64,000 bases of DNA from Meghimatium bilineatum (lineage: Eukaryota > Mollusca > Gastropoda > Stylommatophora > Philomycidae): positions 30,946,617 to 31,010,616 of the forward strand of contig CM067306.1 in NCBI GenBank assembly GCA_034231615.1. The letters are read 5' to 3'. The notes below the pieces were generated by a model that ran no database searches, had not been told where the DNA came from, and worked only from the letters and a program-made list of their open reading frames with translations. Position 1 is the first letter of the stretch. Each line of letters opens with the position of its first letter. The translations under genes and the position numbers were made by a program. This document shows, in pieces, positions 19,324-61,812 of the stretch.

Positions 19324-19352
19324 TGATGTTTCGACGTAAAAGTCTTCATCAG
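19324..19352 (-). other. Hammerhead-like hairpin motif (minus)
   Basis: The minus strand reads TCTGATGAAGAC, loop TTTTAC, then GTCGAAACATC. GAC/GTC can pair. Sits in an AT-rich block (19190-19560) whose downstream part contains ATTTTGCTGCAACAC, similar to sequence after other copies of the motif. Confidence 0.5.
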
Positions 19353-22440: not shown

Positions 22441-23770
22441 CAGCCAGCGAGCTGTTCCTCGTGTAGAAAGATCATTCCATTGCCACCTTATGTGTCCATA
22501 TGTCCCAGACCTAATTTCTTCTATATGAGCCGTGTTGGGTAGCGGCGACAGTCCAATTAGACTCATGGTTGATACACCTTCCTAGACAAGGTGCTGCTTT
22601 ACCAAACATGTCGGGGGTCTGGAATTTGACCTGTGAAATTTACACGAGCTCGATTCGTCTGGTTGTGATGGCCTTCCAATCAGATCGCCAGGCGCAGCCT
22701 GTGTATTCTGACTCTTCGCCATTGCATATGTTACCCAAAAGAAGTAGGTAGAGTACGTCTATCTCGGACGAGGACCTTTGCAGTGGACCTTTGGGTACTG
22801 AACCCAATTCTCTCTGTATGAGTGGTGTTGGGCAATGGCGACAGTCGAGTTGGCTAGGTTTACAGTGACTTGCGATACCACTCTCTACGTTGTCCACATC
22901 GTCCAGGGTCCGAGTCTCAACACTGCTTCGGTCAGACATTTGAAAAATGTACTCCCCGACATTTGTTCAATGCTTGTCCTGCGTGCAATAGGGAGCTGCA
23001 TTCAAAGCTTTTTTTTCATTCGCAGGAGTGCATGTTCAATGTTCAAGTTGGCGTCTCGAGTACCTGGATCATGATTCCTACTTTGAATGGGGTCAATTGT
23101 GGTGGGACATGTGGGCTTCTGTGTATTCTCGGGGCATGAACAGCATTTCCATGGTCGGTCTCGTTCTGGACAATTTTGGCTTCTTTGCTATTATATCGAT
23201 TCACATACACAACGCTGCCTTCTAGCGCGTGTTACTTTTTCCAGATTCAATGTTTACTCATAGTATCACCATATCTTAGCGTGATCTATCCATATATTGA
23301 CATTGGCTGCCCCTCCAATGTTTCTATTTTGTTGGCTGACCGAGACGGAATGCACAGATGTCTTACAATACGGTGTGCTAACAGTGCAGTTGGATGTGGT
23401 TGCGTAGAGAGATCTCTGAGATATTGTCTGTCTCTTTGCAGACTACTGTCATTCCATCTAGAGCTTCCACAACCGCGCACATGGGCCTAAAAGTGTTGGC
23501 CAGAAATGCAACAAAAGCAACTGTATTCCTGTTTTAAGGGGCACAAGGAGGTATGTTTAGAAATTTGGCTATCAGAAAACCTTGGGTCCGCACGAGAGCA
23601 ATGCGAGACCATTTTTTGCACCCCGTGAAAGTGGATGGTGCCATTCTTACGCATCGTAGTACGTTGTGAATGAGTTTTTGATAAAGTCATTTTGGTCGAA
23701 ACATCAATTTTCGGTTGTTATCATATTTGTTTCCAGTGGATAGCAAAACTTCATCACCATGTTCACTAGT
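22440..23770 (+). mobile_element. R1 repeat copy ending in hairpin motif
   Basis: Collinear with 16040-17260 and extending further. At 23679-23707 it carries TTGATAAAGTCATTTTGGTC then GAAACATC, followed by GATAGCAAAACTTCATCACC, which resembles sequence after the Penelope-linked motifs at 52268 and 60891. Suggests R1 could be a nonautonomous Penelope relative; inference only. Confidence 0.6.
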
Positions 23771-29320: not shown

Positions 29321-29518
29321 ATATAGTCAAGCTGAATGGTATAAATAGTGACAGATTGCGCGAATAAATAAAATAATCGATTATAAAAAAAATCGATTGA
29401 TATTTGTCAAAGCGTAGAAATTTAATTAAAAATCATTAATTGATTTTTTTTTTATGACCTGCAGTCAAATATTGCTTCTCGGCCTCCACTTTTTCACGAT
29501 AAGCGGAGTTTGTAGTAT

Positions 29519-30202
29519 GTAATCTCGTATATAGGGCATACATCAGTGTAGTGTGTAATCTCGTATATAGGGTATACATCAGTGTAGTGTGTAATCTTGT
29601 ATATAGGGCATACATCAGTGTAGTGTGTAATCTCGTATATAGGGCATTCATCAGTGTTGTGTGTAATCTCGTATATAGGGCATACATCAGTGTAGTGTGT
29701 AAACTCGTATATAGGGCATACATCAGTGTAGTGTGTAATCTCGTATATAGGGCCTACATCAGTGTAGTGTGTAATCTCGTATATAGGGCATACATCAGTG
29801 TAGTGTGTAATCTCGTATATAGGGCATACATCAGTGTAGTGTGTAATCTCGTATATAGGGCCTACATCAGTGTAGTGTGTAATCTCGTATATAGGGCATA
29901 CATCAGTGTAGTGTGTAATCTCGTATATAGGGCCTACATCAGTGTTGTGTGTAATCTCGTATATAGGGCATACATCAGTGTAGTGTGTAATCTCGTATAT
30001 AGGGTATACATCAGTGTAGTGTGTAATCTCGTATATAGGGTATACATCAGTGTTGTGTGTAATCTCGTATATAGGGCATACATCAGTGTAGTGTGTAATC
30101 TCGTATATAGGGCATACATCAGTGTAGTGTGTAATCTCGTATATAGGGTCTACATCAGTGTAGTGTGTAATCTCGTATATAGGGCCTACATCAGTGTTGT
30201 GG
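29519..30202. repeat. Minisatellite, 36 bp x 19
   Basis: Units GTAATCTCGTATATAGGGCA then TACATCAGTGTAGTGT, spaced exactly 36 bp from 29519 to 30167. Variation is concentrated in two adjoining positions (GCATA, GTATA, GCCTA, GTCTA). 36 bp is 12 codons and no unit carries a stop in one frame of each strand, so a 233-residue open frame arises; not a gene. Confidence 0.96.
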
Positions 30203-30279
30203 TGTCCATATCACGATACACGGGTAGCTTTTGCGAGCCCATTCATTTATAAAGTTCCGAGGTCACATTGAAAATCAAT

Positions 30280-37560: not shown

Positions 37561-37575
37561 CAAGGACAACTTTCT

Positions 37576-37606
37576 ACGTTGCGATCCAACCGGGACCTTT
37601 TTCAAG
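37576..37606 (-). other. Hammerhead-like hairpin motif, variant (minus)
   Basis: The minus strand reads TTGAAAAAGGTCC, loop CGGTT, GGATCGCAACG. GGTCC/GGATC pairs over five positions with one G-U. GAAACG is changed to GCAACG. Confidence 0.4.
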
Positions 37607-39225: not shown

Positions 39226-39749
39226 TAGTTAAAGCATGATTAGTATCATTTAAAAATGTAGGCAGTTGTTCTACTACTGTATGTCTTGCACTTTCTAAAA
39301 GATCTTAAGGTTGAAACTGTCTTGTATACTGTTATTTGTATTTTTTCATACTCATACCCCTATAGTCTGATATTCTGAGTGTTCAGTGTAAAGCTGATTG
39401 ACCATGTGCTTTACGTAAGTACTAATGCTATTGACAGTATGTCAGAGTATTCTACATAACTTCTATTGTTGGTTTTGATGATGATGATGAAGTAATCTCT
39501 TTAGCTGTGAGCAGGTATCTCTTGACATCCCATAGTCTTCCAGACAAAATCACATGTTCATTTCAGTTGTGTGTGTAAATGATGTGCAGCCTAGCCCCAC
39601 GATGTAATGTTGTATAACGGAGGTTCATAGATACATCTTGTCCCGAAGGGAGGCATTCAAGTGCGCTAGTATTCCAGGATTTCCACGTTCTGCCACGTTC
39701 ACAGAACCGTGACATTCGTCTGCACTATCATACCTATACACGGAATTAA
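39226..39749. other. No gene recognised
   Basis: Only a short GATGATGATGATG run at 39476 stands out. Confidence 0.45.
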
Positions 39750-42149: not shown

Positions 42150-42240
42150 TTGCAGTATTGGGGGAGGGGGAGGGTGTTTAGCCAGGTTAGTAAATCATTG
42201 CATGACTTTTAGTACTAGGAATTTAACCCTTCCCCCCTCC
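42150..42240. repeat. G-tract repeat family
   Basis: TTGGGGGAGGGGGAGGGTG, TTTAGTACTAGGAATTTA and CCCTTCCCCCCTCCCCC. G-rich and C-rich ends face each other. Confidence 0.5.
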
Positions 42241-42279
42241 CCCTAGCCATTAAAACGGTGTAATTATGTACGAAAACTC

Positions 42280-42775
42280 CACGAATGTGTCGGGCCATTA
42301 ACGAAAATAAAACGGTGGCGACACAACGCATTTCCATTCTCTGGACTACATCCTGCTGGAAATCTAGTAGGATCATTGTCCTGCTACAAGAGAGATCCAG
42401 TAGAAGTTTGAGAGAGAAATCTAGTAGGATCATTGTCCTGCTACAAGAGAGATCCAGTAGAAGTTTGAGAGAGAAATCTAGTAGGATCATTGTCCTGCTA
42501 CAAGAGAGATCCAGTAGGAGTTTGAGAGAGAAATCTAGTAGGATCATTGTCCTGCTACAAGAGAGATCCAGTAGGAGTTTGAGAGAGAAATCTAGTAGGA
42601 TCATTGTCCTGCTACAAGAGAGATCCAGTAGAAGTTTGAGAGAGAAATCTAGTAGGATCATTGTCCTGCTACAAGAGAGATCCGGTAGGAGTTTGAGAGA
42701 GAAATCTAGTAGGATCAATGTCCTGCTACAAGAGAGATCCAGTAGGAGTTTGAGAACCCCGAAGAAGAAATGCAC
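42280..42775 (+). mobile_element. SINE-A copy with internal 57-bp array
   Basis: Starts GTGTCGGGCCATTAACG, continues through CATTTCCATTCTCTGGACTA, then its 3' body is repeated in tandem, and finally GAGAACCCCGAAGAAGAAAT. The standard GAGAATGAACGCNGAAGAAG tail appears once at the end. Confidence 0.85.
42361..42759. repeat. Minisatellite, 57 bp x 7, within SINE-A
   Basis: Units start AATCTAGTAGGATCATTGTC at 42361, 42418, 42475, 42532, 42589, 42646 and 42703. 57 bp is 19 codons and free of stops in one frame per strand, giving open frames of 186 and 199 residues that are not genes. Confidence 0.95.
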
Positions 42776-43384
42776 AAAATGGGCGGATTACTTTTGTTGG
42801 GGGTTTTTTAAGATAACCTTGCTTTCTACTCCACCCCCTGCCCTTACTAGAGACATATCTACGGCTGCCCAGCAAGGATTCTAGAGCACTTTACAGCAGA
42901 AGTATTGGTAAGCGCTGATTACCGCCATATCAGTAGCTACGCGACATTGATATTCGATCCACAGCTGTTCAAACCCCTGGCATATTTTTAGCATTTTTTA
43001 AATCTTTGCGTTATTGTTTCTACATTAATAATTTGTTATATTTGCGTAATGATTCTGTGAAGATTTATTAATCAATAAATAAAACAAACTTCATAATCAG
43101 TGCTGGCCACTTGTGTCAAGTTGATGTGTGTATGTATACACACGAGTACACGTGTATGTTGCGAAGATGACGCTGCAAAATTTCAATCCGTGTTGTTCTG
43201 AAAGTTGATCAAGTTCCGGATATGTGAAATAAGTTCTGGTCAGCGATGCCACACATGGGGTTTTTCCTCTATATTTATGGGGTTTTCTCCCTAGATTTGT
43301 GGTATTTTGACCGTCGTCTGGGGTAAAAGTAATCTTTTCCACGCCATTGGGGCGTATTGGGAAATAGGTTATATCTATTCTATA
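42776..43384. other. No gene recognised
   Basis: AT-rich with an AATAAATAAAA stretch at 43073. The 103-residue minus frame at 43097-43408 has no recognised domain. Confidence 0.45.
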
Positions 43385-44657: not shown

Positions 44658-44690
44658 CAACGTTTCAGCAATAATGCCTTTCTCAAGATA
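44658..44690 (-). other. Hammerhead-like hairpin motif (minus)
   Basis: The minus strand reads TTGAGAAAGGCA, loop TTAT, TGCTGAAACGTTG. GGCA/TGCT pairs fully (one G-U), a different stem from most copies, which supports selection or descent for pairing. Confidence 0.5.
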
Positions 44691-45440: not shown

Positions 45441-46119
45441 GTTAGTAAATTATTTTGGATGTTCCGAGAAATGTCTCGAGGAGTAACAATACTCTTTTTT
45501 AACTGTCTATACACACTCCGTGTACATGAACGAGGGTCAAAGGTTGACTGATCGGGCGACCGTAACTAGAGCATGACGTCTTTGAAAATAGGTTGTTTAT
45601 CACATGATCATCAATTTTATATGACATATTGGCTAATGGGAAAACAAGCATTCAATGACTCATATTTGACTATACGAGTGATTTTTCATTGATCGTGTGA
45701 CATATTCTTTCCCAGAACGTAGTCTTCTTTATGTGTGATTTCTCGTTAGAGAACCGACTTATTCTTAGCCTCGGAACTCTTAAGCCACATTTCATCAACG
45801 ATCTGTTTTATATATATGTCATTTGGTTCGAGTCATGGTTACTGATACCCCACGCCCCACCCCTTTTTTGTTTTGTTTCTACCTTACGCTTAGATTCTTG
45901 TTTTCTTTGCGTTCTCTTGACTCCCTGTTAATTAGGCCTTTGTCCGATATCATTACCTTTAATTGCCCGAAGATGTCTTTCTCGCCTCCGCTTCCTTCGC
46001 ACAAAATATCAAAAGATCACAACACACAAACGTGTCCATCCGAAATATGGAAGTGAGATGCCGGAAGGACGGGAAGTACATAAGCAACGTAAATCGTCTT
46101 TTGATGTTTTGTGCTTATC
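45441..46119. other. No gene recognised
   Basis: 45590-45715 has weak inverted symmetry around CATGATCATCAATTTTATAT. No gene signal. Confidence 0.4.
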
Positions 46120-46149
46120 TTGATAAAGACCTTTTGGTTGAAACGTTGA
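46120..46149 (+). other. Hammerhead-like hairpin motif
   Basis: TTGATAAAGACC, loop TTTT, GGTTGAAACGTTG. GACC/GGTT pairs fully with one G-U, followed by TTTTGTGTATTGCAATT. Confidence 0.5.
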
Positions 46150-49936: not shown

Positions 49937-50104
49937 AATAGTTGATGTAATTTATGGAAAATAGTTGATGTAATTTATGAAAAATAGTTGACGTAATTTA
50001 TGGAAAATGGTTGACGTAATTTATGGATAATAGTTGACGTAATTTATGGACAATAGTTGACGTAATCTATAGAAAATAGTTGACGTAATATATGGAAAAT
50101 AGCA
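49937..50104. repeat. Minisatellite, 23 bp x 7
   Basis: Units AAAATAGTTGACGTAATTTA then TGG. Isolated relatives at 49685 and 38692 suggest the unit existed before the array. Confidence 0.9.
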
Positions 50105-50109
50105 ATTAT

Positions 50110-50380
50110 AATTCCCGAACGGGGAGCAAAGAATAGCAGTACTTTACCGTACATGCATGTAAGAGACAATATATGAGGATTTGAGGTAGAGTTAGTTAAC
50201 TATCCCATTCCATGTAAGGTCAAAGTGATACAGACGTCTTGCTGAAGTCGAATGTGTCAGACCGAAAAGCGCAAATAATCGTATCTAAGCTGTAAATCAT
50301 GACAACGCATTTCGTTATCCGGGTTACACCCTACTAATAGGCATGAGTTTGAGAACGAACACAGAAGAAGAAGAATTTAA
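50110..50380 (+). mobile_element. SINE-A long copy with GAA tail
   Basis: Outer part (GAGCAAAGAATAGCAGTACT, CATGCATGTAAGAGAC), then GTCGAATGTGTCAGACC, GTAAATCATGACAACGCATT and GAACGAACACAGAAGAAGAA. Confidence 0.75.
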
Positions 50381-50394
50381 TATTTGGGTACACT

Positions 50395-51670
50395 CAACCA
50401 TGTTGGGACGCTTTGGGCCGTAACCTGAATGTCTTTGGTGCACCGATGGCCCGTGCTATTGAAGTAGACGTCCACAGGATATCACAAATGGCTTTTGATG
50501 CTATACAGATGTTTACGGAATCGGTCTGCAAGCCTCCTTACAGTTTCCACCTATGTATGTCATGACGCAACGCTTGCATATGATGGCATATATGACGTTG
50601 TAGGACATACATGTGACGCCCTCTTCAACAGTGAATGTGGCTTTACGGAATGTGATAGACCTGGTCTGTGTGACATAGGCACAGATGTAGCAATTGTTGC
50701 ATTTGCAGCTGATGGTGCCGCAATGATTAGGAACGTCAGGCTGGAGGTGAATCCGGACCAGTAGGACCTTGATGTTCTTGTCACGGCTGTAAACAACCAG
50801 AGAGGGGGGGGCGGTCACAAACACATCCCGAGTCTCTGAATCCCACTGGAGAAGAAGAAGGTGACGGAAAAGGATGTGACGAACAGCAGCGCTATGGGGG
50901 TGGAAAGTGAGAACAAGTTTGACCCTATCCGAACAGGAAGAATCCCGGGTGTTCAAGAGGGTGTCCTGACGGGAGATGCTGCACACTCGAAGAAGGGCAG
51001 ACCTGATGACCCTCTCAGGGTTTATGTGACTGGAAGAAATCCGTCATCTCGTAGGCTGTCTCGAGTGAGTAGAAAAGGCTTCCTCCTAACCACTACACAA
51101 GCGCCGGAGAACGAAGTAGTGGAGTGAACTTTTTGTAGTATACCAATGTGCTGAGACATGAGGTTTGGATAGTGGTGGATATTTCCAAGAAGTTCCCAAC
51201 GCGAGATGGAGATCTCCAATGTGAATTTGATGCCTGAGTAAAAATTGTCAATGAAATGTCTGAAGCGTGCCCTATCAGCCTCAGGCATGTCAGTGATGCC
51301 GATTCCATGATCGATATACTTATGGAATAGCAACGTGAATGGTCAACCATAGGATTTATATACCTGGTGCTCAAGGTGATCCATGAACAAGCAGGAATAG
51401 CTAGGTCCCATCTTGGTGTCAATGGCGACCCCACTGATTTTGTCAAAGAAGTTCCCATCGAACTATAAGGAGTTGAGCTCTGCAAGACGGATGAGGGTAG
51501 AGGTAGACACAGAGGGAAGAGGATGCTTGTCGAGGAAGACGGCCTTGTGATATGGATATTATGGGGAGCATAAAAAGACTATAGGAGCCGGGGACATTGA
51601 AATTGAGGCCAAGATAGACAGGGCATGTTTAATGTTTTCCTTGATAGTATATTCCAACCATTAGTGGAGC
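50395..51670 (-). mobile_element. Penelope-like element: RT C-half and GIY-YIG
   Basis: In minus-strand order: STSTLIRLAELNSL, then FFDKISGVAIDTKMGPSYSC (RT motif B, 51390-51470), FHKYIDHGIGI (RT motif C, 51300-51340), HPHSAAVRHILFRHLLLLQW (connector, 50880-50920) and NVIYAIICKRCVMTYIGGNC (GIY-YIG nuclease, 50520-50610) with the following SIKSHL block to about 50400. Penelope-like RTs pair such an RT with a GIY-YIG nuclease. Stops and frameshifts are present, and motif C has YIDH in place of YIDD, so the copy is inactive. The RT N-terminal half is missing. Confidence 0.88.
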
Positions 51671-51689: not shown

Positions 51690-52330
51690 ACACATGTGCC
51701 TATGTCACCCAGACCAGGTCTGTCACATTCCCTAATGCCACCTTCACTATTAAAGATGGCTTCACGTGCATTTCCCGCAACGTCATCTATGCCATCATAT
51801 GCATGTGGTGTGTCATCACTGACATATATAGGTGAAACTGGAAGTAGGCTCGCAGCCCGATTCCGTGAACATCAGTATAGCATCAAAAACCATTTGGGTT
51901 ATCATGTGGATGTCTGCTTCAATGGCACGGGACATTCAGGTTACCGCAATTAAGTTGTGCTTCTCTGACTACCGAACCCGTCTTGCGCGTGAGAACCGCT
52001 ACATATTCCAAATTTGCATTCTTGAACTCTTCGGGATCAATGATCGCCTGTCTCATGGATGGTATCTAATTGCCCATCGTATCTCTGTTTGTTTCGTGTC
52101 ACATTTATGTAGCTACATTTTTATATTTTTGTATATTCCTTTCCCCGGTGTCCTCTGACCTTGTTACAGCTCTTCCGGTTCAATCTCCACGTTACAGTAA
52201 ATTTGGCGTGTGAAGTCTATAGTTCTTACTTGTCGTTTCCTGTTATGTATGTTCAATTTTTTTTGGCTTGATAAAGGCCTTTTGATCGAAACGTCGAATT
52301 TTGTGTAATTATGTGTATCTTCAGTGATTA
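51690..52330 (+). mobile_element. Penelope-like element: GIY-YIG end and 3' region
   Basis: Reads RNVIYAIIC, then in another frame YIGETGSRLAARFREHQYSI and KNHLGYHVDVCFNGTGHSG, then ENRYIFQICILELFGINDRL: a GIY-YIG module with the IGxTG...R..EH signature and the usual terminal block. At least two frameshifts. About 110 bp after the last stop lies the hairpin motif at 52268-52296. Oriented away from the minus-strand copy, their 5' sides almost touching. Confidence 0.88.
52268..52296 (+). other. Hammerhead-like hairpin motif
   Basis: TTGATAAAGGCC, loop TTTT, GATCGAAACGTCG. Three of four stem positions pair. Followed by ATTTTGTGTAATTATGTG and a block ATTAGCAACGTTTTA also seen after the copy at 60891. 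Confidence 0.55.
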
Positions 52331-53040
52331 GCAACGTTTTATTACACTGTTCCTGGATCTATCCACACTGTGGGAATAATTTTAGAACCAGCTGCCATTA
52401 ACCAACGCTTCACATTGTTTTGATGCCCCGATCTATATCTTCGCTCCCTCTAATATTCTTTTATACTTTTCTATCTCTTCTTCCTCATCCTTTTCAGTCA
52501 TTCTGTCCATCTATGTCTTCTCATAGTTTTTACAACTGCTAACCCTAGCCGGATGTCACGTGCCACAAGTTGCCGTATTTACATTCCGTCTTATTTTCTT
52601 TTCTCCGGCTATGATGCGTCCGATAGTCATCTTCAGATAAGAGAGTTTTATTCAATTTTATTTGACTGTTACTGCTTATAATGTTTTCATTTTGTATTTT
52701 CTGTGTGTAATGTACTTTTTCTACATGTATCAACTCACAATTCCGTCGCTTTCTGATCTCTTCGTATTTTTGTTGCATTCTTGATCTGTCAGCTACTACA
52801 TGGCCGACATGTAGTCCTTCCTTGATTTTGTGGTTCCTATTCTGTTTTTGTTTCTCCATTTCTTGATTGACATTTTTGACCGAAACGTAGATTCTGTGTA
52901 TTGTTTCTCGTAAAACTACTATTTAACGATTTATATATATATATATTGTTCAATATATTAACGATGTTGCCAACGATGAATATATATATATACACTTTCC
53001 AATACATTTTTTACATCGGTAAATAGCGTTACTTTTGAAG
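52331..53040. other. Unrecognised, with a weak further motif
   Basis: 52862-52889 has TTGATTGACATTTTTGACC then GAAACG, a weak relative of the hairpin motif. The 104-residue minus frame (52545-52859) is Lys/Arg-rich, with no recognised domain. TA runs at 52935 and 52980. Confidence 0.4.
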
Positions 53041-59389: not shown

Positions 59390-59481
59390 TGAAATATGTA
59401 TAAGTGTTACTAGTCTGTAAACGGAATATACTAGCAACGAGACATTGCGATAAACGACGTTTCGACTAGAAGCCTTCATTG
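59390..59481 (-). other. Hammerhead-like hairpin motif and downstream block
   Basis: Minus strand 59481-59455: CAATGAAGGCT, loop TCT, AGTCGAAACGTCG; GGCT/AGTC pairs with one G-U. The following TCTCGTTGCTAGTATATTCC and AACACTTATACATATTT blocks are shared with 60060-60134. Confidence 0.5.
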
Positions 59482-59929
59482 GGACGAGTGACACGATAGA
59501 CATAATACTTTACATACAAATACACACATAGTTCAACGACGGTAGGAGGAAAAGATTAAAGCATGGTAGAAAACATGTCAAGGGAAATAAAAAAAATAAA
59601 AAGGAGAGATAACGTCCTGTGAGGTTTGAGGAGAAGAACATAGCAGGAGAGCGCTTTAATGTCTCATTCATTCTTTCCTCTTTCCTTATAATTGTCCTGT
59701 CCACTTCACTCGCTTTCCTTGAAATACCCTTCTCCTATCATGTTTCAATCTTTCCCACCTGTAATCCACTCATCATTTGTGCATTTGTATGTAAAGTATG
59801 CTGTCTGTCGGTCAGGAGTGTAGATACATTTTTAGTAAGTAGATGGCTTTAATCCAATAAAACCGTTATTCGCCCATTTTCGTGTGTGAGTCCCTCTGTT
59901 TGATAAGAAATGTGATGACCTTTTTCGTT
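59482..59929. other. No gene recognised
   Basis: No domain or named repeat seen. Confidence 0.45.
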
Positions 59930-60059: not shown

Positions 60060-60161
60060 TAAAATGAATATAAATATGTGTAAGTGTTATCAATATTAGT
60101 AAATAAAATAACTAGCAACTAGACAGCGACAGGCGACGTTTAGACTAAAAGCCTTCATCAG
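60060..60161 (-). other. Hammerhead-like hairpin motif and downstream block
   Basis: Minus strand from 60161: TCTGATGAAGGCT, loop TTT, AGTCTAAACGTCG. Intact TGATGA and a paired stem; GAAAC is changed to TAAAC. Shares its downstream block with 59390-59455. Confidence 0.5.
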
Positions 60162-60890
60162 AACAAAAGATAAACGAAATAAATTTGCCTTGTGTTACCC
60201 CAGTACATTTCCAGTTTCGAGTTGTTTCGCGACACAGGAGCTTTATCTCTTCCATAGTCTCATTTGTGTATGTACGTGCCTTATCTATTCGTATCATGGA
60301 TTAATTTGTTTCGTGAATATTCAACTTTTCCCACATAGGAAGTAACATGCTTGACATAGACCGTGAATCAAAACATTGACTTCTATGCTTTGTCAAACTG
60401 TGTCATGGTATGTTTATTCTTGGTCATTGCAACCGGAAAAAGATGTGTCAACTAGAAAAGTAATTATAAGAAACCAAATTGTGCATTTATACGTATCTGA
60501 CGTTATAATTGACTATGCTAGGTTGCGACATAACTTTTGTCTGAGTGCATGGGGCAGAAATACAATTAATGAAATTGTTGTAGCAATCACCTATCCGTCT
60601 TTCAAGACGATAGTACTATTTTATGCTATAGTAACTGCAATCTACAACCTATAGTGATAATGGATGTGACTCACAAGACCAATCTGAACCTCAAAGAGTC
60701 TTCGACAATATGTACAAGTAATCACATGCCCGCTTGTACCATTAAGTGCTGTTGTATTTTTTAAAAAAAACCGATTTTAGTTCATTTTGCGTTCTTAATT
60801 TCAAGAGTTATTTCCCTGTAAATCAGCACATTTATCTCTCTGCCTAGTGAAAATCAGTAGCGCCACTTATTTGTTTTGCGCATGTAGTCT
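60162..60890. other. No gene recognised
   Basis: The 92-residue plus frame at 60376-60654 has no recognised domain and no splice or repeat support. Confidence 0.45.
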
Positions 60891-60990
60891 CGATAAAGGC
60901 ATTTTGGTCGAAACATCGATTTGTGTGTTATTATGTGTGTCATTAGTCATTAGCAAAACTTCAGTACCCTGTTCCAAGCTTTGCCTGTTG
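60891..60990 (+). other. Hammerhead-like hairpin motif and downstream block
   Basis: CGATAAAGGCA, loop TTTT, GGTCGAAACATCG, then TTGTGTGTTATTATGTGTG and TCATTAGCAAAACTTCAGTA, which parallels 52297-52360 after the Penelope-like element. Confidence 0.5.
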
Positions 60991-61687
60991 GAGTTTTGTT
61001 TTTCTGCAGCGATATCATATTATCGTAAATCAGATGTTTATCGATTGATCCACGAATTTATTCTCAGTTTCCGATAATTAAAAAAGCCTGGCATATAACC
61101 TACATACGGGCCAATGAACACTAAATTATTTCGTTTTCCGGAATAATCATGCTAATGAATGGATGTTATCGGTTATTGCATGATTCTGTTCTAACCAGTC
61201 TGTGTGCACAACTGCAGTTGTGTGACCTCTTATCAAAGTACCGGTACATGAGTGTTTTTGGGTTTTTTTACCACGTGAATATGAGTCAACACTTGTTAGC
61301 TATTTTATTGCACTGTTCTTTCAATGCCTCTGGTTATTGGGTTAAATTGGAAACTAATCACGTCCCTAGGGGCCTATGTAAGAAACCAGAACTTGGGTTT
61401 TAGTACTAGGAATTTAGCCAAATGCAGGGTTAAACAACACCCCCCCCTCTTCCTCCCCCCGCCCTTTAAAAAAAGTTCCCGTTAAAGACTTTAGAAGAAA
61501 TAAAAGATTTTAAAATCATCAAAAATGAAAATGAATTGTGCACGAAAATAAGAGAATGATACATTTTTTAAAGGTAGCATCCATTCCCCCCCCCCCCCCC
61601 CTTGTCCACTTATTTAATACGTGTCTACAGTCCTAAATGTAATGAAGTTTTGCTAATCACTGAAAACACACTGGGAAACGCTAGTCG
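60991..61687. other. Unrecognised, with two G/C-tract repeats
   Basis: 61405-61500 (TTTTAGTACTAGGAATTTAG then C runs) and 61565-61650 (C16, then AATACGTGTCTACAGTCCTA) belong to the G-tract family. No gene. Confidence 0.5.
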
Positions 61688-61713
61688 GTGTTTCGACTAC
61701 AATATCTTTATCA
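61688..61713 (-). other. Hammerhead-like hairpin motif (minus)
   Basis: The minus strand reads TTGATAAAGATATTGTAGTC then GAAACACC; the stem is weak (GAT/GTC-type pairs). Confidence 0.4.
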
Positions 61714-61812
61714 AGAACACATAGCATATGATGGCACTTTCCACGCTCATGTGACAGATCACCATATTCCAAATCAAATGTTTACTCAAATACTCAATAT
61801 TTACAGTATTCT

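Follow-up and report, generated by a model that had tools for sequence, protein, structure and literature searches.

What is the short two-box motif that recurs on both strands of this stretch of Meghimatium bilineatum DNA, one copy of which (52268..52296, plus strand) lies downstream of a broken Penelope-like GIY-YIG gene? The window, by which we mean the whole 64,000-nucleotide stretch analysed (C9:30946617-31010616), was said in a sequence-only reading to contain the motif at ten sites, and all ten are present, each at most 2 bases away from the position given. We consider it probable, at about two chances in three, that the motif represents the core of the minimal type I hammerhead carried by Penelope-like elements (PLEs), with the U3-A8 form in roughly two-thirds of copies. 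What is observed in favor of this reading is the sequence match, the position within the element, the copy number, and the pairing statistics of positions 3-8 and of stem II.

The recurrence itself is far above expectation. A scan of the window with the consensus YTGATRAAG-N9-14-GAAACRTYR returned 8 places with at most one mismatch and 11 with at most two, whereas 20 shuffled versions of it (first-order Markov) averaged 0.6 places with at most two mismatches and never exceeded 3. Nine of the ten sites fall within these 11 places; the remaining two, 47541 (+) and 41446 (–), look like chance matches. The tenth site, 37576, carries 3 mismatches, a level at which the shuffles average 11 places, and we accept it as a true site because its flank matches that of a genome locus, L197 (75% identity over 134 nt, E 2.6e-21). 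With a core profile (about 43 nt) derived solely from genome loci outside the window, 9/10 sites were recovered at E ≤ 2e-4; site 37576 was absent from its list and scored just E 0.05–0.15 with three family profiles. Profiles trained outside the window added two weaker places, one at about 52863 (+) and one partial, at 39298-39368 (+).

The same holds across the genome (1,612,235,226 bases, 1.61 Gb, in 32 contigs), where the pattern TGATRARGN{5,20}GAAACGTYG has 5,539 + 5,490 exact matches, 11,029 in all, versus 10 + 10 (20) for the reversed pattern. The sites are short and scattered over both strands, as they would be if a short motif simply recurred by chance in AT-rich DNA, but the comparison with shuffles in the window and with the reversed pattern genome-wide refutes this explanation, to which we assign next to no weight. 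The 153 distinct copies form 37 flank clusters at E<1e-10, or 26 once loci chosen as mispairs are removed, and a single 29-mer (family B, U3-A8) occurs in 2,068 identical genome copies. In viral contigs, the exact two-box pattern was found in at least 120 stretches; among the matches listed, no consistent hairpin was visible by eye, and we judge those matches to be chance. A 352 bp stretch of apparent 100% identity was discarded, as it was merely the overlap between two query windows.

Aligned to the type I hammerhead scheme, the left box supplies C/U3-UGAU-G/A8-A9 and one extra A, followed by a stem II of 3–4 bp, and the right box supplies G12-A13-A14-A15.1-C15.2-G16.2-U16.1-Y17-G1.1. The hammerhead-like core that had been proposed is therefore present as described, with the core positions met in order and spacing and with either C3-G8 or U3-A8; CUGAnGA is termed conserved in hammerheads (PMC10085705). 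The genome search pattern imposes most core positions, so that the informative positions are 3 and 8, which were tallied freely. The frequent A at position 8 had been counted against activity. This objection falls away: A8 accompanies U3 and G8 accompanies C3 in 10/10 window copies (7 U-A, 3 C-G) and, genome-wide, in 9,404 of the 10,134 copies (6,742 U-A, 2,662 C-G, 403 C-A, and 327 U-G; odds ratio 136). Control matches gave U-A 0, C-G 2, C-A 0, and U-G 0. We rejected decay as the source of A8, given a 29-mer with U3-A8 that is present 2,068 times without change.

The history of this association is less clear-cut. Within the family B 29-mer we counted 2,068 U-A, 18 C-A, 13 U-G, and 0 C-G, and thus found no recent double switching at 3-8 inside that family. 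Because the link holds between families and C-G is missing within the 29-mer family, the genome-wide link may reflect one old split. A family-level tally of 3-8 was left out, as it is biased by the 40 loci (39 copies) chosen as mispairs. The extra A that had been noticed before the stem is a near-universal feature, with 10,134 copies carrying it versus 454 pattern matches without it (control 5); the 100 listed matches without it are mostly one base shorter, as though the AAA run had lost one A.

Between the boxes, the two sides had been said usually to pair, with stems whose differences look like covariation. The pairing stands for 8/10 window copies, which have three contiguous standard pairs, and fails for those at 23678 and 52268. 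The hairpin is kept with differing stems in other families, for example as GGUCCC-AGU-GGGACC and GACUAGUC. The covariation is moderate, being clear relative to slid registers and weak relative to column shuffles. In 21 family representatives, 78.6% of stem II cells were paired; with the 3-8 pair included the value was 81.9%, compared to 26–46% in slid registers and 77.4% in column shuffles, of which 20/500 reached 81.9%. The covariation score for the same set was 0.427 versus 0.334 shuffled (6/500 reached it), and pairs changed on both sides showed no excess over column shuffles (3 versus 2.7). Across 37 draws of families, the one pair of stem II clearly above column make-up was the fourth (25/36 versus 19.9), with no clear excess for the second and third pairs. 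The hairpin energy was –1.29 versus –0.09 kcal/mol shuffled (n = 153), and 3 bp formed in 109/153 copies. RNAalifold predicted no pair; among 60 sampled copies, the minimum-energy fold contained the pair that closes stem II in 10.

The outer stems are much reduced. Stem I amounts to about 2 bp (C2.1-G1.1 in 20/21 and U2.2-A1.2 in 17/21, with G1.1 fixed by the search pattern). We rejected an extended stem I, since pairing in the 21 family representatives showed no excess over shuffles and flank duplexes were weaker than shuffled ones (–1.16 versus –2.02, n = 153). Stem III and the cleavage site, which the sequence-only reading could not place, can be assigned: A15.1-C15.2 would face G16.2-U16.1 without a loop, followed by a predicted GUY/G site (the slash marks the cut), and stem III had been missed because ACGU has no loop. 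ACGU is self-complementary, so that pairing is possible only with a second copy; its sequence is set by the search pattern. A purine at 15.2 was found in 556 copies (control 55), and the 100 listed are mostly GAAAAG, with 0 GAAAGC and 3 GAAAAU, which gives no real covariation support for stem III. We accordingly rejected stem III by covariation, there being no clear compensating changes among the purine-15.2 copies listed. The suggested search with Rfam hammerhead models found nothing in the window at the gathering threshold, and nothing at a relaxed threshold of E ≤ 10 for the 52268 copy and seven other loci. A stand-alone, self-sufficient ribozyme is not supported by the sequence, and cleavage at GUY/G is a prediction from it.

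Given no Rfam match and at most one well-supported helix, one may ask whether the motif is a different structured RNA that is hammerhead-like by convergence. We regard this as very improbable. The order and spacing of the core match, the 3-8 pair occurs in both forms known from hammerheads, and PLE hammerheads that have been described occur in the same element class.

The link to Penelope that had been suggested is borne out in the fetched loci and in the window, where the motif follows PLE GIY-YIG genes in sense orientation. An ORF of 921 codons at locus L129 matches RVT_1 (E 6e-4) and, at its C terminus, GIY-YIG (E 1.7e-4), both below Pfam cut-offs; we identify it as PLE because of the RT-then-GIY-YIG domain order, which is known for Penelope-like elements (PMC11167929), together with the tandem array in which it lies. 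This ORF had no match among PDB sequences or in NCBIfam, and no relative was found in the viral and genome contigs searched. The array has units of about 5.38 kb, with the motif in each unit seen (L129 151 and 5538; L130 1012 and 6390). In this family (A), about 2.2 kb separate the ORF from the motif that follows it, and the next open frame begins about 400 nt further on. At another locus (L141, 400– and 441–), two tandem motif copies lie 41 bp apart and have C3 and A8.

The fetched loci and the window contain 26 GIY-YIG 3′ ends, and a same-strand motif is found downstream of 23 of them, at 176–209 nt for 20, at 303 nt for 1, and at about 2.19 kb for 2 (family A). The motif-less ends make up three rows: one reaches the end of L129, with the motif then in L130, and the other two are one place (L128/L149), with no exact motif in the 986 nt available. 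Some rows are repeats (L124/L145, L128/L149, and two pieces in L263); with repeats removed, about 22 distinct GIY-YIG ends are left, 20 with the motif. Because these loci were fetched by the motif, strand and spacing are informative and frequency is not. In a less motif-biased sample, the family A-like GIY-YIG sequences of contig 1 below 62.8 Mb, 9/10 had a same-strand motif 2.16–2.72 kb downstream (three of the ten share one array).

We assigned the window copies to families by profile and flank comparison. The copy at 52268..52296 (+) belongs to family C and is U3-A8 (profile f2 E 1.8e-21). Its core comprises U3 at 52268, UGAU at 52269-52272, A8 at 52273, A9 at 52274, and the extra A at 52275; stem II and its loop occupy 52276-52287 (GGCC UUUU GAUC, with the third pair, C.A, broken). 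On the right side, G12-A15.1 are at 52288-52291, ACGU at 52291-52294, and Y17 at 52295, which puts the predicted cleavage site between 52295 and 52296. This copy is 209 nt past the projected coding end of a frame-broken PLE GIY-YIG C terminus at 51692..52050 (+), detected by tblastn with the L129 ORF in three pieces (E 7e-20). Head-to-head with this plus arm stands a minus arm at 50416..51537, a broken PLE sequence with reverse transcriptase and GIY-YIG (tblastn E 6e-32 and 2e-32), whose open frames had no Pfam match of note and whose 3′ side (49950-50450) contained no motif by profile search. Across the window, the open frames gave no RT or GIY-YIG match in Pfam.

Family C also includes the U3-A8 copies at 60890..60918 (+; position 4 changed; profile f2 E 3.5e-28), 61686..61714 (–; position 16.1 changed; profile f2 E 5e-13), and 23678..23706 (+; profile f2 E 4e-17), the last with a U.U mismatch in stem II and with U2.1-A1.1 replacing C-G. 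A family B copy at 46120..46148 (+; U3-A8, stem II GACC/GGUU; profile f0 E 6e-30) lies beside a GIY-YIG remnant found by tblastn at 45740-45811, and its divergent partner at 44658..44686 (–; U3-A8, GGCA/UGCU; profile f0 E 1e-5) is related to family B. The C3-G8 copies belong to family A, at 59455..59482 (–; positions 4 and 5 changed; profile f1 E 5e-17) and 60134..60161 (–; position 12 changed; profile f1 E 2e-18), or to a distant branch of it, at 19324..19352 (–; nearest L248 and L154; profile f1 E 4e-7). The copy accepted through its L197 flank, at 37574..37605 (–; U3-A8, position 13 changed), is a decayed member of a long-stem family (GGUCC-loop-GGAUC). As for the two weaker places, 52863..52890 (+) is a further decayed copy, of the L267 family (4 mismatches; profile f3 E 0.0015; L267 flank E 1.7e-19), and 39298..39368 (+) retains the right side and 3′ flank only (profile f0 E 1.7e-4; L134 E 1.9e-9). 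Elsewhere in the window, 29494-30252 and 42215-42884 have open frames on both strands that consist of short tandem repeats (TDVCPIYEITHY-like and SSRIIVLLQERSSRSLREK-like).

Strict core positions are intact in 5/10 window copies and changed in the other 5/10, and 2/10 have no 3 bp stem II. Such losses would suit plain fossils, that is, dead ribozyme remnants that persist solely through PLE copying. We think this unlikely, because the identical two boxes recur across 37 flank clusters (a recurrence that is partly built in, since the search pattern picks intact boxes) and because one 29-mer is present in its 2,068 identical copies.

Neighboring motif copies are mostly divergent, minus and then plus: 9/11 within 2 kb among the first 100 places listed, and, by eye, 14/14 for neighbors of the 29-mer family within 2.1 kb among 100 places listed. 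Examples are found at L131-L140 and L201 and, in the window, at 44658 (–)/46120 (+) and 50416-51537 (–)/51692-52050 (+). The divergent arms look like head-to-head PLE copies with their 3′ ends outward, GIY-YIG being present in both L139 arms, and they fit the cutting and extension of both target strands reported for PAc, Poseidon of Anolis carolinensis (PMC11167929). In 7/11 divergent pairs (by eye; L133-L135, L137-L140) one arm stops about 122–135 nt past the motif, and the other runs on into a "tail" that resembles the optional PLE tail (PMC11167929).

How could an RNA with so little of stems I and III be of use to the element? The positions at which copies end bear on this question. Measured by the reach of similarity to at least 3 family members, family C copies end 61–87 or 109–125 nt past the motif (n = 27), family A copies end mainly 64–106 or 139–161 nt past it (n = 34; three others at 34, 48, and 122), and family B copies end 116–202 nt past it (n = 45); the 5′ ends are ragged. 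In PAc, the hammerhead cut falls at +26, and RT begins at 111–118 nt of the ORF (PMC11167929). The PAc RT start is thus 85–92 nt past the cut, which is close to the shorter 3′-end class here. By this comparison, the motif would lie just inside the start point of reverse transcription, in the 3′ untranslated or pseudo-LTR region. Because the motif is shortly before the 3′ end of the element, 5′-truncated copies retain it, which would account for the high copy number. Every recovered copy was, we infer, made from RNA uncut at the motif; copies made from cut RNA would evade a motif search.

These ends are also compatible with a non-catalytic, hammerhead-derived recognition element, in which the PLE RT/endonuclease binds the core and hairpin and binding would place internal RT initiation 60–160 nt downstream of the motif. 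The near loss of stems I and III, the two favored 3′ ends that the motif precedes in families A and C, the probable origin of the recovered copies from uncut RNA, and the independence of PAc insertion from hammerhead cleavage (PMC11167929) all point in this direction. Nevertheless, it is the bases of the catalytic core that are kept, together with the partner swap at 3-8, and PAc insertion required RNA of the initial 172 nt of the ORF and tolerated 5′ truncation to +20 (PMC11167929). We consider pure recognition rather unlikely, though the strongest competitor of the hammerhead reading.

Returning to the hammerhead reading, we favor a weak, dimer- or protein-assisted ribozyme because the recovered copies probably derive from uncut RNA and because the PAc hammerhead, likewise, cuts only with protein and is not required to cut for insertion. 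The motif would descend from a PLE hammerhead. A single RNA would hardly cleave, and two motifs (with ACGU:ACGU as stem III), the PLE protein, or both would be needed. Cleavage at GUY/G would then trim part of the transcripts, and the uncleaved RNA would be the form that is inserted. We put forward tentatively, as a possibility, the more specific idea of a hammerhead whose outer stems no longer fold as units and which acts solely within the PLE ribonucleoprotein. In such a particle, the protein would hold the stem I and stem III strands, the core would be selected in dozens of PLE families, and U3-A8 would be the main form.

Minimal type I hammerheads without helix III have been described in PLE pseudo-LTRs, dispersed by the thousands (PMC7761336; PMC6155905; PMC7229834), and their role in these elements is described as still unknown (PMC7761336). 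The motif is like them in element class, pseudo-LTR position, core, missing helix III, and thousands of dispersed copies. Dimer action has been proposed for them (Cervera & de la Pena 2014 and Lunse, Weinberg & Breaker 2017, as cited in later papers), and tandem motif arrays and a reduced helix are seen here (L129, L130). It is unlike them, as they are described in these sources, in three respects: about two-thirds of copies are U3-A8, nearly every copy has the extra A following A9, and stem I is down to about 2 bp.

The PAc hammerhead is a second point of reference. It cuts only with protein, cutting is dispensable for insertion, and C3 and G8 have been shown to matter (PMC11167929). Shared with PAc are a PLE hammerhead shortly before the RT start sites and an optional tail at the element end (PMC11167929). 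The PAc hammerhead overlaps the start of the ORF and comes with a stem I that has been described; here, in the tandem arrays of family A, the motif precedes the ORF by about 400 nt and follows it by 2.2 kb, and in other families it is about 190 nt past the GIY-YIG end. If such RNAs cleave only with the PLE protein, PLE hammerheads would count as ribozymes that depend on protein; if cleavage never occurs, the core would have been reused as a binding site. The combination of thousands of copies, many families, two core pairs, and scant stem I helps to distinguish the parts that are kept (core, stem II, ACGU) from the part that is not (stem I).

In the hammerhead of CChMVd, an extra A is located between A9 and 10.1. 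This extra A, present in the plus-strand ribozyme of the viroid (PMC3705267; PMC4918200), is the sole feature by which we liken the two. The U3-A8 swap is reported as natural and active in hammerheads (Perreault 2011, PMC3088659); the examples in that source are "several," whereas here the swap is the majority form in the PLE families of one genome. We provisionally conclude that what is new relative to these known systems, in many PLE families of a single genome, is the U3-A8 majority, the fixed extra A, and the near absence of stem I.
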